In this document: positions 2,198 through 48,218 of the stretch, piece by piece
How positions within the stretch are numbered: the first letter of the stretch is position 1
Layout of the letters: every line of letters begins with the position of its first letter
Origin: Romeriopsis navalis LEGE 11480
GTDB taxonomy: Bacteria > Cyanobacteriota > Cyanobacteriia > Leptolyngbyales > Leptolyngbyaceae
DNA length: 48,233 nt
Direction of reading: 5' to 3'
NCBI RefSeq assembly: GCF_015207035.1
Contig: NZ_JADEXQ010000045.1
Span: 1 to 48,233 of the forward strand
Program-made: the position numbers and the translations under genes
The notes under the pieces: generated by a model
Told to the model about the DNA's origin: nothing
Databases searched by the model: none
The model's input: the letters and a program-made list of their open reading frames with translations, nothing else

Positions 2198-2300
2198 GAC
2201 TTCCTAAAAGGGGCGCTGGGATGTTGCGTTAATTCGATCTCTAGTTTTACGGATGCGATCGGGAATCGCCGGAAATCTATCCAAATATTTCGGATTTGGG

Positions 2301-2966
2301 TTAGCGCGATTCGGGTTGCGGGCACTTAAAGGATTGGAAAACGCGATCGAGTTGAGGCGCTGCTTCTGGGCCGATGGCGAAGAGTTGGATGCTATTTTGG
2401 GTGCGTTTTTGGGATTGCACCACTAAGTATTCCCGCATTTGGACGAGCCGCCTGGGGGCTTCAAGCAAGCGATAGCTGCCTTCGCGAATCGTAACGGGCA
2501 CGGTTTTGCCACAAAATTGCTTTTGCTCGACGCGTTTGGTGTTTTGATGCCAAGTCCCGACGAGGGCCGATGGAATATCGAGTTCTTCAGCGAGATTAAT
2601 GGGGACTTCACCATCCATGCCTTCGACTGGTGCTTGGCTGACCAGGAGCAGTAAATTGGAAGAAGGATGACGACGATTACCGACTAAAGCAAAGGCTTCG
2701 GTATTGGTTTGAAAACTTTTCAGCCCTTGAGAGCCCCCGGGCATCTCGTATTCCACGACTTGTGCAACGATCGATTCTGCCTGTTCGGGGTTCTTGATTT
2801 TGGCCAGGAATTGATTGGCAATTTCGATCACCGCAAACACGACAATCGCTGTGGCGCCCACTCCGACCACAATGAATTCCACTAATTTCACGGGGTAGTC
2901 CGGAATGGTTTGTCCGTTTGCCGCCGTCGTGGGTTTGTCTGTGGAAGGAGAAGCTGGCTGCATCAT
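2301..2966 (-). CDS. single-pass membrane protein of unknown function
   Basis: I do not recognise the family. The frame extends back to a GTG at 2996 overlapping the ATPase, but tandem ATG codons at 2966 and 2963 begin 7 bases after the ATPase stop and are more likely starts; this gives about 221 residues. A short polar N-terminus is followed by one membrane helix near residues 25-48 (FIVVGVGATAIVVFAVIEIA). A soluble alpha/beta domain follows, with a VEYEMPGG stretch and two cysteines (FCGKT, SFKCPQ). The position behind the P-type ATPase suggests co-transcription, perhaps as an accessory factor, but that is inference from spacing only. Confidence 0.8.
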   Translation of the reverse strand: MMQPASPSTDKPTTAANGQTIPDYPVKLVEFIVVGVGATAIVVFAVIEIANQFLAKIKNPEQAESIVAQVVEYEMPGGSQGLKSFQTNTEAFALVGNRRHPSSNLLLLVSQAPVEGMDGEVPINLAEELDIPSALVGTWHQNTKRVEQKQFCGKTVPVTIREGSYRLLEAPRRLVQMREYLVVQSQKRTQNSIQLFAIGPEAAPQLDRVFQSFKCPQPESR

Positions 2967-2973
2967 GGTTTGT

Positions 2974-5403
2974 TTAACGCCGCAGGAGGTCAACACCGAG
3001 GAAGCGATCGAAGAATTTCATCCGCCAAGTTAGCCGGAGAATCAAGGCCCATTCTAAAGCAACGAGAAGCAAAAAGCCGATGTCCCGGAGACTCAGGGCG
3101 GCCAGCTCATAGAATTGGCGCACGGGCGGAATCACTAAAATTAGCATCAATCCGGTGGTGAGTACGATCGCGGCGATTGTGTAACGCCAGTCGCCACTGT
3201 AGGGTTCGCCGCCGCCGCAGCTGTCGTGGGGGGGTTTGAGAAATGGTAAAAGCACGAGATGACACAGAATCAAAATCGTCACCAGTGCGGTGCGGGGCAA
3301 GGTGTAGTCAATTTGGGTGATGTCGTCGCCCCCCGGCAGTTCGAGTACCGCTTTGACTAGATAGAGCAGATAAACGAATAGTGAAACTAACGTCATTGTG
3401 ATGGAAGCGGGAATTGTGAAGTGCAGTAATGACTGGACAACACTGGTTTTATGACGTTGTTTTCCCGGTTTTGCCCAAAGTGGAAAAACGCCAGTCGGTA
3501 AGCCGACCCCAAAGAGGGCGAGCAAAGCACTATGTTTATTGATCAAGGGGAAGCTCTCGGTGACCATGGCGATCGCGAAGATCAATAACGTCACCGTTGT
3601 GACTCGCACGAGGAATAGGGCAAGGGAATCTCGAATGCCATTGCGAATCCGCTGACCCTCGATAAAAGCCCGTGGCAAGGCGGAGAATGAGTCATTAAGG
3701 AGAATGATGTCGGCCACCGCCCGTGTGGCTTTACTGCCGCTTTCCATGGCAATGCCGAGGTTGGATTGTTTGAGCGATAGGACATCATTCACCCCATCCC
3801 CAATCATGGCGACGTATTTATCTTGAGTGCGGAGCGCTTTGACCAGTTCGGCTTTTTGATCCGGGGTGATACGTCCGAAGATACTCGCGGTAGCGGCGGC
3901 TTGGGCAAAATCGAGCCCATTTTTCTCGCTCAGTTCGAGGCCTGATACAACACCGACATCGCCGAATCCGGCTTGCTTGGCGAGGGCGGCGACAGTATCG
4001 GGATTATCACCAGAAATGACTTTTAACTCGATGCCAGCGCGAGTAAATTCGGCTAGGGTTTCGGCGACATTTGTCCGAAGTTGATCACTGAAATGCAGGA
4101 TGCCTAGGGGCTCCAGCTTTGGCAAGCATAGGTGATTAGGGTCATCAACCTGATGCCAATGGGTGTCGCTGGTTTGAGCAAAGAGCAAAACCCGTAAACC
4201 TTGATGAAGGCCCGCTTCAATCTGGGCCGCCATTTCGGGGGTGAAGGTGACGCATTTGGCCATCATCTCCGGCGCCCCGAGCACGTAGGTGACGTCATGG
4301 ACGATCGCACTCCATTTGCGGGCGGAAGAGAAAGGCACTTCGGCTGTGATGTTGAGGTATTTGCCGTGGCAACTGGTTTGGAGCGCTTCGATGGTCCGAT
4401 TTGGCGAATTGGTCGTGACGGCATAGTTGCCGAGATGTTGTCGCAATTCCTGGTCCGAGATACCGATCGGATAAGTCGTTTGTAGGTTGATTTGGTTCGT
4501 CGTTAAGGTGCCGGTTTTATCGAGGCAGAGGACATCGACATTACTTAAAGATTCAACCGCATTGGTCTGTTGAATCAGAATATCCTCGCTGAGCATCCGC
4601 ACAGCGGCCGTCCCGTAGGCGAGGGTAATCGCAATTAACAAACCCGTAGGGACGATTCCCGCAACGACTGCCGCATGTTGTACGATGTCGCCGAAGCTAT
4701 AGGAACGACTAAAGTAGCTAATCGCGACCAGCAGCAGTAAAAAACAAGCTAGTAAGAGTAAGGCGCGAATAATCAGATTGATTTCTTGTTGGAGTGGAGT
4801 ATAGACCTGACGAAAGGTGCGGGCGCCGGTGACCAATTTGTAGGCGACGGTATCACTGCCGACTTTGGTGGCTTCGAAATAGGCGGAGCCGCTGACACAG
4901 TTGCTGCCGGAAAAGACTTCATCGCCATGATTTTTGGGTACTAAATCCGACTCTCCAGTGAGCAGTGATTCATCGACTTCGACCCGACCTTCGCCGACCA
5001 TGTGGCCATCAACCAAAATTTGGTCTCCGGCTTCCAATACAATGAGGTCGCCCAGAACGATTTCCTCGGGCGTAATGTCTTGGGCTTGGCCATCGCGAAT
5101 GACGGTCGCTTTGGGGCGGCTGAGTAAAGCGATTTCGTCGAGTTTCCGCTTGGCCCAGATTTCTTGGACGATTGAGATAATCACCCCGGTGGAGATAATC
5201 ACGACCACCAGAAATGCGTCCCCATATCGCTTCAATGCGAACATTAACAAACTCAGCGTAAAGAAGACGAAGTTGATAAATGTGAGCAAATTTTCACGGA
5301 AGATTTGCCAATAGGAGCGGCTTGTCGGCAGCTTGGCATTATTGCCTTGGCCATTGGCGCGGCGTTTCAGTACTTCTTGCGCAGTTAGTCCTTGGGGTTG
5401 CAT
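2974..5403 (-). CDS. P-type cation-transporting ATPase, CtpE-like
   Basis: An ATP-driven cation pump of 809 residues. Visible parts are: actuator TGES at 149-152 (SLLTGESDLVPK); phosphorylation loop DKTGTLT with Asp295; nucleotide-binding KWSA at 363-366; and hinge GDGVND at 535-540. There are about ten membrane helices (40-80, 212-270, then six from 585 to the C-terminus). The N-terminus (GLTAQEV..R...G) and overall order resemble mycobacterial CtpE, a calcium-uptake type ATPase. There is no heavy-metal CPC motif and no metal-binding N-terminal domain. In M4 the usual PEGL is PTGL (252-255), replacing the ion-coordinating Glu with Thr, so the ion cannot be named safely. The membrane gene downstream is probably in the same operon. 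Confidence 0.93.
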   Translation of the reverse strand: MQPQGLTAQEVLKRRANGQGNNAKLPTSRSYWQIFRENLLTFINFVFFTLSLLMFALKRYGDAFLVVVIISTGVIISIVQEIWAKRKLDEIALLSRPKATVIRDGQAQDITPEEIVLGDLIVLEAGDQILVDGHMVGEGRVEVDESLLTGESDLVPKNHGDEVFSGSNCVSGSAYFEATKVGSDTVAYKLVTGARTFRQVYTPLQQEINLIIRALLLLACFLLLLVAISYFSRSYSFGDIVQHAAVVAGIVPTGLLIAITLAYGTAAVRMLSEDILIQQTNAVESLSNVDVLCLDKTGTLTTNQINLQTTYPIGISDQELRQHLGNYAVTTNSPNRTIEALQTSCHGKYLNITAEVPFSSARKWSAIVHDVTYVLGAPEMMAKCVTFTPEMAAQIEAGLHQGLRVLLFAQTSDTHWHQVDDPNHLCLPKLEPLGILHFSDQLRTNVAETLAEFTRAGIELKVISGDNPDTVAALAKQAGFGDVGVVSGLELSEKNGLDFAQAAATASIFGRITPDQKAELVKALRTQDKYVAMIGDGVNDVLSLKQSNLGIAMESGSKATRAVADIILLNDSFSALPRAFIEGQRIRNGIRDSLALFLVRVTTVTLLIFAIAMVTESFPLINKHSALLALFGVGLPTGVFPLWAKPGKQRHKTSVVQSLLHFTIPASITMTLVSLFVYLLYLVKAVLELPGGDDITQIDYTLPRTALVTILILCHLVLLPFLKPPHDSCGGGEPYSGDWRYTIAAIVLTTGLMLILVIPPVRQFYELAALSLRDIGFLLLVALEWALILRLTWRMKFFDRFLGVDLLRR

Positions 5404-45507: not shown

Positions 45508-46230
45508 CTAAACGGGTTTGCGAAAAATCAGAAGATGTTGCTGGGGCAGATCTTGTTTGTTCTCGATGAATTCTAAGCCCACTGCTTCTAGTTCGTGGCG
45601 GACTTGACGCTGAGTCATTTTGTGGAGTTTTTTGATCGGAATCAGGGGGTTCTCGCCTTTGTATTCCAGTAGTGCTACCCGTCCTCCCGGTTTCAACGCG
45701 GTCACAAGGCCCTGCATCATTTCTTTGGGGTAATCGAATTCGTGATACGCATCCACCATCAATGCCAGGTCGATCGTGTCAGCAGTTAAATTGGGATTTT
45801 GATTAGCGCCAAGCACCCGATCGACATTCTCAATATGCTTTTCTGACTGGATTTCAGCCATGATGTCGAGCATTTCTGGCTGTACATCGACGGCATAGAC
45901 TTGTTTGACTTGTGGTGCCATGCGAAAGGCAAAGTAGCCGGTTCCTGCACCGATGTCGGCAACAGTGTCGCTCGGTTGTAGGTCTAGTAAGTCAATTGCT
46001 TGCTGGGGACGTTCTTCTAAGCCTCTGGCCGATCGTTCCAGCCAAGCAGCCCCTTGATGTCCCATCACTTGGGCGATTTCGCGACCCATATAGATCTTGC
46101 CAATCCCGTCAGGGCGGTGGTTGACTTTAGTTGTGTAATCGGTTGTGTCGGCAAAGGCTGGGCTAGAAAGCATAAGGAAGCTGAGACAGACTAAGCTCAC
46201 CCAGTAACTCCATCGCTGGAAAATTCGCAT
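45508..46230 (-). CDS. exported SAM-dependent methyltransferase
   Basis: From the ATG at 46230 (a TTG at 46239 is less likely) it has 240 residues. A Sec signal peptide covers about 1-28 (WVSLVCLSFLMLSSPAFA, cut after AFA). The methyltransferase fold follows: VADIGAGTGYFAFRMAPQV, the acidic strand VYAVDVQPEMLDIM, DLALMVDAYHEFDYP and LKPGGRVALLEYKG. The segment GKIYMGREIAQVMGHQGAAW before it marks a family of signal-peptide-bearing methyltransferases of unknown substrate. It starts 17 bases after the stop of the caspase-like gene, so the two probably form an operon. Confidence 0.9.
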   Translation of the reverse strand: MRIFQRWSYWVSLVCLSFLMLSSPAFADTTDYTTKVNHRPDGIGKIYMGREIAQVMGHQGAAWLERSARGLEERPQQAIDLLDLQPSDTVADIGAGTGYFAFRMAPQVKQVYAVDVQPEMLDIMAEIQSEKHIENVDRVLGANQNPNLTADTIDLALMVDAYHEFDYPKEMMQGLVTALKPGGRVALLEYKGENPLIPIKKLHKMTQRQVRHELEAVGLEFIENKQDLPQQHLLIFRKPV

Positions 46231-46247
46231 ATGACTCAAAGTATATT

Positions 46248-48218
46248 TTAGGCAACTTGATATTTGAGCGGGATCACAGCATAGCGATTCATATCTAAGC
46301 CATAAGCATCGGATGACTCAAATCCCGGTGCGGACAGATCTTTCAATAAAGCCTGTATGACTTCTAAGGGCTGTGGCAGCCGATGCAAATATGTTTCGGG
46401 TTGGACGACGTTGAGGGCCTTCAGCACTTCTGTGGTTTGGACGAAGGGCCGATCGCTGGTCACTAAATAAGCGGTTGCTTCGCCAACGGGGCCACGCACT
46501 GACCAATTATCTCCACTCTCACGGAAGGGCAGACTGGTAGTTGTCCCAACGCCTAAAACGGCCGATTCTTTGTCAACTGGCGGCAATACAACGTAGGTGT
46601 CATGGCGACTATTCCATCCAACGAGCATCCAATACAGTGGCGTATTGGATTGATTCGTCGCGCGGTAGCATAGCTGCGTTCCAGCGGCTAAACCGGGCAA
46701 GGTTGTCATGTCTGTATTTTTGACTTGGGCGAGTGCGGTTGACTGCCGGAAAAATAATTTGGCTTGGGGCGTGAGTCGATCACTCTCAACACTCACGGCT
46801 AAATTGGCGCTATGGAGGTTTTCTAGCAGGTTGAGCACTTTGTCGGCATACAGTGCTTCGACGATCGGCGCAAACCGCTTCACCATGGTTTTGACGGCTT
46901 CACCGGCTTCGCCGGAGGTGGTAGAAATGCGTTGGTTGTCCGCTGTGAATAGTGCGTAATGTGGTGCCGGCACCACATCTTTTAGCGGTGCATCGGGCAG
47001 GGCGGCGACGAGACTACTAATCGGATCGGCTTCTTGCACTTTCGCTAAGATGTAATCTGCTGCACCATCGCCAATTAGTTTGGTGCTGACATTGGCCAAA
47101 CCGGATAATGCGCCGATCGCATCAACGCGCTCGATTTTACTTAAGCTATGGTCGATCACAATCTGAATCGCCAGGTCGCGGGGCATTGTGCGCAGTTGTT
47201 CGGCAATCGTCGTGCCTAAATTCAAGGGAGTGGCCGGGCTATCCATGCCCGTCACTCGCACTGCGGCTTTGAGGCCTTGACGCGCTTGAACTTTGAGTAA
47301 CTGGCCATCACCAGCTTTGAGTAAGGCTTGAGGATTGACTAACGCTACTTGCTCCGCCGGCAACCCGCCAAGCCAGAGATCCCCGGTTGTGCCGGTCGAA
47401 TCGAGATTAACCAGTGCCCCGATCGATGCGGGCATTGTACTGGTCGCAATCAGGCGATCAATTAATTTACGATCGTTCTTGCCACCACTGATCGAACCGA
47501 GTGCGGACTCGTCCAGGGACGACTTTGTGGGCGTTTGCCAAAGTGATTGGGTCAGGCCGTAGGTAAATCGACCAGCACTGAAATCGGGATAATCGACTTC
47601 GACGGCTAATTGGTCAGTTGTCGCGGCCGATAAAACGATGCCGGGTAATCCGGCATTCATGATGTTGACTGGGGTATGAGCGCTGTCGGCAACATGGGCC
47701 CGAACCCGCAGATTCCCGTCCAGGGGTTGACCATCGGATTGGTAACAGGTATCCAGTACAGTAATGACTTTGCGGCTGCCACAGAGGTTGAGTAACCGCG
47801 CTAAATCGACCAGGAGCAAGGATTCATCCCCAGACAAGGATAACGCCGGTTGTTGGGCGGGGCCGATCGCGCCTTTTCCACTGAAATGCACGAAGACAAC
47901 ATCGTTGGGTTGGAGCTGCTGCAATGTGCTGCCAAAGATCTGTTTGATCCCATCCAAAGTTGCCGCTTGGTTGGTTAATCGGAGAATATTCTCAGGGGCA
48001 AATCCAAAACGCTGTGTGAGTAAGTTTGCTTGCAGTTCAACATCGGTGATACACCCTCTTAGTGCATCCTGTGCGTAATGATCAACCCCAATCAGTAGGG
48101 CAATCTTGCGTATATCCGATGCCGCGAGCACCGATTGACAATTACCCAACAGCAGATTCCCGACCCCTAAGGCCGTGAGATAAGCAGCACCTGATTGTAG
48201 AAAAGCACGGCGTTTCAT
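46248..48218 (-). CDS. caspase-fold (peptidase C14) protein with altered catalytic His
   Basis: 656 residues. The N-terminus MKRRAFLQSG is a Tat-type signal peptide or membrane anchor (with LLGNCQS near 23-29, a weak lipobox). The caspase p20 domain (about 36-250) starts KIALLIGVDHYAQDALRGC. The catalytic Cys158 is present in VLDTCYQSDG, but the His site reads VHFSGKGA with Lys115 instead of His. A long middle part (260-470) has no clear domain. Residues about 480-620 resemble DUF4384 (LYWMLVGWNSRHDTYVVLPP, VRGPVGEATAYLVTSDRPF). Bacterial caspase homologues (orthocaspases) act in stress or cell death; here activity is doubtful. It is upstream of, and probably co-transcribed with, the exported methyltransferase. 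Confidence 0.93.
   Translation of the reverse strand: MKRRAFLQSGAAYLTALGVGNLLLGNCQSVLAASDIRKIALLIGVDHYAQDALRGCITDVELQANLLTQRFGFAPENILRLTNQAATLDGIKQIFGSTLQQLQPNDVVFVHFSGKGAIGPAQQPALSLSGDESLLLVDLARLLNLCGSRKVITVLDTCYQSDGQPLDGNLRVRAHVADSAHTPVNIMNAGLPGIVLSAATTDQLAVEVDYPDFSAGRFTYGLTQSLWQTPTKSSLDESALGSISGGKNDRKLIDRLIATSTMPASIGALVNLDSTGTTGDLWLGGLPAEQVALVNPQALLKAGDGQLLKVQARQGLKAAVRVTGMDSPATPLNLGTTIAEQLRTMPRDLAIQIVIDHSLSKIERVDAIGALSGLANVSTKLIGDGAADYILAKVQEADPISSLVAALPDAPLKDVVPAPHYALFTADNQRISTTSGEAGEAVKTMVKRFAPIVEALYADKVLNLLENLHSANLAVSVESDRLTPQAKLFFRQSTALAQVKNTDMTTLPGLAAGTQLCYRATNQSNTPLYWMLVGWNSRHDTYVVLPPVDKESAVLGVGTTTSLPFRESGDNWSVRGPVGEATAYLVTSDRPFVQTTEVLKALNVVQPETYLHRLPQPLEVIQALLKDLSAPGFESSDAYGLDMNRYAVIPLKYQVA

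Follow-up and report, generated by a model that had tools for sequence, protein, structure and literature searches.

The caspase-like protein encoded close to the end of the window (the whole stretch of DNA analysed here, 48,233 nucleotides of Romeriopsis navalis LEGE 11480) is, judging from its sequence, probably a derived and fast-evolving member of the YS-type pseudo-orthocaspases, a group already known and widespread in cyanobacteria. The His-Cys catalytic dyad of active orthocaspases is absent from it, a lysine (K115) standing at the His site. This is a further isolated variant at a position prone to drift within the group, which makes the finding largely ordinary. A candidate new protease class is thereby removed, and a picture emerges of what the group keeps, testable in laboratory cyanobacteria.

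The gene and its dyad residues

The gene is an open reading frame of 656 amino acids (46248-48218, minus strand) that runs uninterrupted from an ATG, begins with MKRRAFLQ and is complete although the contig ends 15 bases upstream of its start. Both FSGKG (K115) and LDTCYQS (C158) lie inside its translation (Table 1). The caspase p20 fold was indicated by a Pfam match to Peptidase_C14 (PF00656; residues 37-234, E 1.9e-14) and by structural comparison: in an AlphaFold model of the protein (mean pLDDT 80), the p20 region matched metacaspase 4 (6w8s_A) with Z 19.7 and rmsd 3.1 over 201 aligned residues. The structural match to the metacaspase reaches residue 257, and neither of the two families that Pfam found in the protein is a p10 model, p10 being the domain whose absence sets orthocaspases apart from metacaspases. 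The PADLOC "caspase" model also matched (E 5.6e-18); the NCBIfam match fell far under its cut-off (33 versus 140 bits). By direct alignment, HFSGKG corresponds to HYSGHG of metacaspase-1 and -4, and against two paralogues from the same genome K115 aligns with His and C158 with Cys. The reading frame, codons, Pfam match and alignments thus confirm what the initial annotation had described, a caspase-like protein with Lys115 (AAA) in FSGKG and Cys158 in LDTCYQS; its view that the His is lost is supported, and the pseudo-protease that it named as one possibility is the most likely reading.

Table 1. Position of the gene and of its main features in the window
Feature	Position	Strand	Basis
Probable YS-type pseudo-orthocaspase gene, 656 aa, dyad Lys/Cys	46248..48218	(-)	
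Tat-like signal region, ~residues 1-34 (MKRRAFLQ ... SVLAA)	48117..48218	(-)	by eye
p20 (Peptidase_C14) domain, residues 37-234	47517..48110	(-)	Pfam match
D59, presumed pocket Asp	48042..48044	(-)	192/192 relatives, 20/20 active paralogues; presumed equivalent to the published pocket residue
K115 (AAA), catalytic His position	47874..47876	(-)	metacaspase and paralogue alignments
D156, presumed pocket Asp	47751..47753	(-)	192/192 relatives, 20/20 active paralogues; presumed equivalent to the published pocket residue
C158 (TGT), catalytic Cys position	47745..47747	(-)	paralogue alignment
C-terminal region, residues 264-656, alignable throughout the group	46251..47429	(-)	

Relatives and tree placement

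Matches to the window protein at E 0.001 or better were found in 33 of the 42 genomes of its family, its own included; the gene-order search covered the same 42. No close orthologue carrying His at the K115 site, which the initial annotation had named as the sign of a strain mutation or sequencing error, was found, but the nearest relative outside the window's genome (L006, in genome G001) shares only ~38% identity. None of the 388 class genomes drawn scored above L006 in a search that scored at most three candidates per genome with a listing threshold of E 1e-40, weaker relatives going uncounted. Outside the family, 116 genomes of the same class matched, of which 104 were read (24 and 80) and 12 were left out. 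A single-protein query over the named genome contigs returned no relative; a scan of these contigs with an alignment profile returned 414, the best 80 of which were kept (L035-L114) and include Leptolyngbya, Stenomitos, Myxacorys, Nostoc, Calothrix, Microcoleus and others. As an active set, we fetched on purpose 20 His/Cys paralogues, from the window's family only. Two of these come from the window's own genome (G000), on contigs C198 (cut by the contig's end) and C9, and are referred to as L133 and L134.

Dyads were read in two sets. The 96-row set holds the window protein, 93 relatives and the two paralogues, without L001 and L004 (duplicate loci of one gene) and without L024 and L026 (partial pieces). 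The 216-row set holds the window protein, 195 relatives and the 20 active paralogues, with identical sequences entered once and the broken L026 gene entered as two pieces (L026, unreadable, and L026b, Tyr/Gly). Column tallies over 192 relatives leave out L024, L026 and L034, whose sites are unreadable. In the 114-row tree, which uses 93 relatives, L133 and L134 stand for L002 and L003 (the same genes). The wider relative set was placed by FastTree alone (212 rows, without L024, L026, L034 and L026b).

In the 114-row tree, built with both dyad columns removed, a single branch with support 100 separated the 94 rows without His/Cys from the 20 rows with it. The same split recurred with support 100 in trees of 42, 25 and 212 rows (in the last, FastTree, 192 versus 20). 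The window protein falls on the pseudo side, where the commonest dyad is Tyr/Ser. There it grouped with L006 and L034 (99) within 12 rows of its family (96) in the 114-row tree; its pairing with L006 received 100/99 in the 25-row tree and 99 in the 212-row tree, in the latter within another set of ten. The window protein has a long end branch (from 1.0 up to 2.2 changes per column across the four trees); its join with L006 was flagged as a possible long-branch effect in the 114-row and 212-row trees, and its place inside the group varies by tree. L034 (1495-3273) is itself a more degenerate relative, with FHVSGLL, no clear Cys site and the longest end branch of the 114-row tree; its dyad reads Leu/Gln in one alignment and falls in gaps in another.

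From matching features, the group of relatives collected here appears to be the published YS clade. In the parts of the literature consulted, YS-type pseudo-orthocaspases (PMC6426788; PMC2853523) share with the window protein the p20 fold, the lost His/Cys, a Tat-like N-terminus and an acidic pocket, and clade I is described as having one orthologue in each cyanobacterium. Klemencic et al. 2019 (PMC6426788) report clades with Tyr/Ser and with Tyr/Asn, an N-terminus of Tat-like type and conservation of the acidic pocket; according to Jiang et al. 2010 (PMC2853523), every cyanobacterium having such proteins, Gloeobacter excepted, carries a single orthologous copy that is mutated. The earlier remark that inactive cyanobacterial orthocaspases mostly carry Tyr/Ser agrees with these sources, as far as consulted, in which they are mostly Tyr/Ser or Tyr/Asn. 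The window protein differs from the YS-type by its Lys/Cys dyad, its long branch and several shorter loops (e.g. after residues 183 and 187); it lacks stretches that most relatives have, such as two of 15 columns each that would follow residues 183 and 553. SyOC (sll0148) of Synechocystis sp. PCC 6803 is likewise a cyanobacterial p20 protein with a lost dyad and differs, in a comparison made by description, in its Tyr/Gly pair; its deletion is reported, in the part of the source consulted, to increase oxidative-stress tolerance (PMC7889975). The His/Cys paralogues, L133 and L134 among them, share the p20 domain and the twin-Arg start with the window protein but differ in having His and Cys in all 20 read and in forming a separate branch.

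Variation at the dyad positions and the origin of Lys115 and Cys158

Among the 192 relatives without His/Cys, the His site holds Tyr in 134, Leu in 29, Phe in 13, Cys in 12, His in 3 and Lys in 1, and the Cys site holds Ser in 115, Gly in 68, Thr in 6, Cys in 2 and Ala in 1. The two dyad columns are of middling variability: when the 199 p20 columns are ordered from the least variable upwards and numbered from 0, they rank 102 and 130. The 96-row set reads mostly Tyr/Ser (61), followed by Tyr/Gly (8), Phe/Gly (6), Phe/Ser and Cys/Ser (5 each), Leu/Ser (4), Tyr/Cys and His/Cys (2 each) and Lys/Cys, Lys/Ser and Leu/Gln (1 each). The 216-row set reads Tyr/Ser in 85, Tyr/Gly in 43, His/Cys in 20, Leu/Ser in 15, Leu/Gly in 12, Phe/Ser and Cys/Ser in 7 each, Phe/Gly in 6, Cys/Gly in 5, Tyr/Thr in 4, Tyr/Cys and His/Gly in 2 each and Lys/Cys, Lys/Ser, Leu/Ala, Leu/Thr and His/Thr in 1 each, with 3 unreadable; these tallies are biased as rates, since relatives entered the set for resembling the window protein or its alignment, and the active paralogues were fetched on purpose. 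No relative on the pseudo side has His together with Cys; all 20 active paralogues have both.

Rare dyads have been described before: a 2021 survey (PMC8283722) lists, in the part consulted, 16 rarer ones, Tyr/Cys and Arg/Gly among them, and a 2020 review (PMC7475262) assigns Tyr/Cys, Tyr/Gly and further pairs to the Tyr/Ser clade, Tyr/Ser being the commonest pair. Lys/Cys is absent from the 16 rarer dyads of the former and from the consulted text of the latter, and so appears unpublished as far as these texts and the literature searches reach.

The Cys at position 158 had been taken as intact. It is probably not the retained catalytic residue: because the nearest relative, L006, is Leu/Ser, C158 is likely, and most simply, a one-base return from Ser. 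The serine of L006 is encoded by AGT, one base from the TGT of the window gene, and all 115 rows with Ser at this site use an AGY codon, which a single base change turns into Cys TGY. The alternative, in which C158 was kept from an active ancestor and the lineage lost the His alone, is unlikely on present evidence, although the trees do not settle it. Grouping the window protein with the active paralogues was rejected by the AU test when L006 was in the set (25 rows, p 0.017), and the alternative also has against it both the sister relationship with L006 and the uniform AGY codons; without L006, however, the same grouping was not rejected (42 rows, p 0.23), nor does the test speak strongly against moving L006 and the window protein together to the active paralogues (25 rows, p 0.077).

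Very improbable is the proposal that Lys with Cys forms a separate class with its own chemistry, in which Lys would act as a base for Cys158. Lys and Cys do fill both dyad positions and the presumed acidic pocket is intact, but the pair occurs in 1 of the 193 rows with readable non-His/Cys sites (192 relatives and the window protein), on the pseudo side rich in Tyr/Ser. Each residue recurs with a different partner. The only other Lys at the His site, in L045 (AAG; 2223-4484, a Microcoleaceae MAG), is accompanied by Ser and lies elsewhere on the tree, and Cys at the Cys site recurs in two relatives, L029 and L069, both with Tyr. Aligning the p20 domains, the check that had been suggested for a conserved Lys/Cys clade, yielded none: a joint clade of the window protein and L045 was rejected by the AU test (p 0.0059 with 25 rows; marginally, 0.047, with 42), which supports separate origins of the two lysines. 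With a single genome carrying it, the pair offers no way to show that it is conserved.

The Cys adjacent to the Lys could still be chemically reactive, and redox-switchable Lys-Cys covalent bridges exist in proteins. It is conceivable, at very long odds, that a dead site has been re-used here, with K115 and a regained C158 forming a reactive pair (a Lys-assisted thiolate or a redox-switchable Lys-Cys bridge) beside a pocket for basic residues that is intact, the protein itself being probably lumenal or periplasmic.

A sequencing or assembly error at K115 is highly improbable: the contig does end near the gene and one genome of the window's genus was among those searched, but the frame is intact, the protein keeps 59 of the 63 columns in which 95% or more of the relatives agree, and a single-base error would not explain K115, since no codon seen there for Tyr, Leu, Phe, Cys or His can become AAA with fewer than two base changes. 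The same 59 columns show that the window protein, though diverged, is still under constraint.

Retained features and gene neighbourhood

The frame around the lysine is fixed, S113, G114 and G116 (SG.G) being present in all 192 relatives. The role presumed for the pocket aspartates D59 and D156 is that given, in the part consulted, in PMC6426788. C56 is kept in 173 of the 192 relatives. We considered H111 as a replacement for the catalytic His, the initial annotation having raised the possibility that another conserved His takes over the role; it is kept in 188 of the 192 relatives but equally in all 20 active paralogues, and was rejected. The other p20 histidines of the window protein are H47, H175 and H181, and the relatives' consensus at position 47 is Gln.

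At the N-terminus, a twin-Arg motif (MKRRAFLQ) and an A-x-A-like signal (SVLAA) were recognised by eye in the window protein. R3 and R4 do not vary in either of two alignments (26 and 50 rows), in which the start codons of the relatives were picked with the twin-Arg motif as a guide. Towards the C-terminus, Pfam gave a weak match to DUF4384 (residues 523-591; 24.8 bits, below the cut-off of 27). The start of the C-terminal region (residues 264-344; 47187-47429) is modelled as a small beta-barrel resembling F1-ATPase subunits, and residues 1-81 of the C-terminal model matched F1-ATPase chains with a best Z of 10.3 over 72 residues.

Beside the tree place, the dyad drift, the fixed aspartates and the fixed signal arginines observed here, the window protein is best read as a putative non-cleaving, Tat-exported p20 binding module on a fast-evolving branch. 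The ancestor of the group would have lost the His-Cys pair long ago, and afterwards the His site would have drifted (Tyr, Leu, Phe, Cys, Lys and rarely His) together with the Cys site (Ser, Gly, Thr, Ala and rarely Cys), with the fold, the twin-Arg start and both presumed pocket aspartates held constant throughout. Tat would carry the folded protein to the thylakoid lumen or the periplasm. Its acidic pocket, which has been retained, may bind a basic (Arg/Lys) peptide that is not then cleaved, so that the protein, jointly with its C-terminal region, would serve as a scaffold, decoy or receptor; K115 would then be a tolerated substitution. Binding without cleavage fits the data because, across the 192 relatives, the dyad drifts and the presumed pocket aspartates and the SG.G frame remain unchanged.

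In 139 of the 182 relatives with at least 700 bp of upstream DNA, the gene is preceded on its own strand by an ATP sulfurylase gene (sat), at a median gap of 119 bp; the rest comprise 40 without sat and 3 with sat otherwise placed. Within the named set the corresponding figure is 61 of the 74 loci whose upstream DNA reaches 1500 bp or more, and three of these gaps exceed 1 kb. Many members of the window's own family, L006 included, have no adjoining sat, and in the window's genome sat is internal to another contig. The active paralogues are a weak control, as 18 of the 20 rows have too little upstream DNA and the other 2 are without sat. Since an ATP-sulfurylase neighbour, Cyanobacteria-specific among metacaspase operons, was already reported in 2012 (PMC3501461, the consulted part of which does not state which metacaspases), the wide linkage seen here is at most an extension.

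Directly downstream of the window gene, 8 bases away on the same strand, lies a gene (45508-46239) whose product has a methyltransferase domain and, as judged by eye, a signal-like N-terminus; the 1399 ORFs flanking the 80 named loci include no relative of it. In these loci, with names assigned by eye, MnmA-like genes were seen further upstream in 23 of the 80 and an MTA-phosphorylase-like gene downstream in 14.
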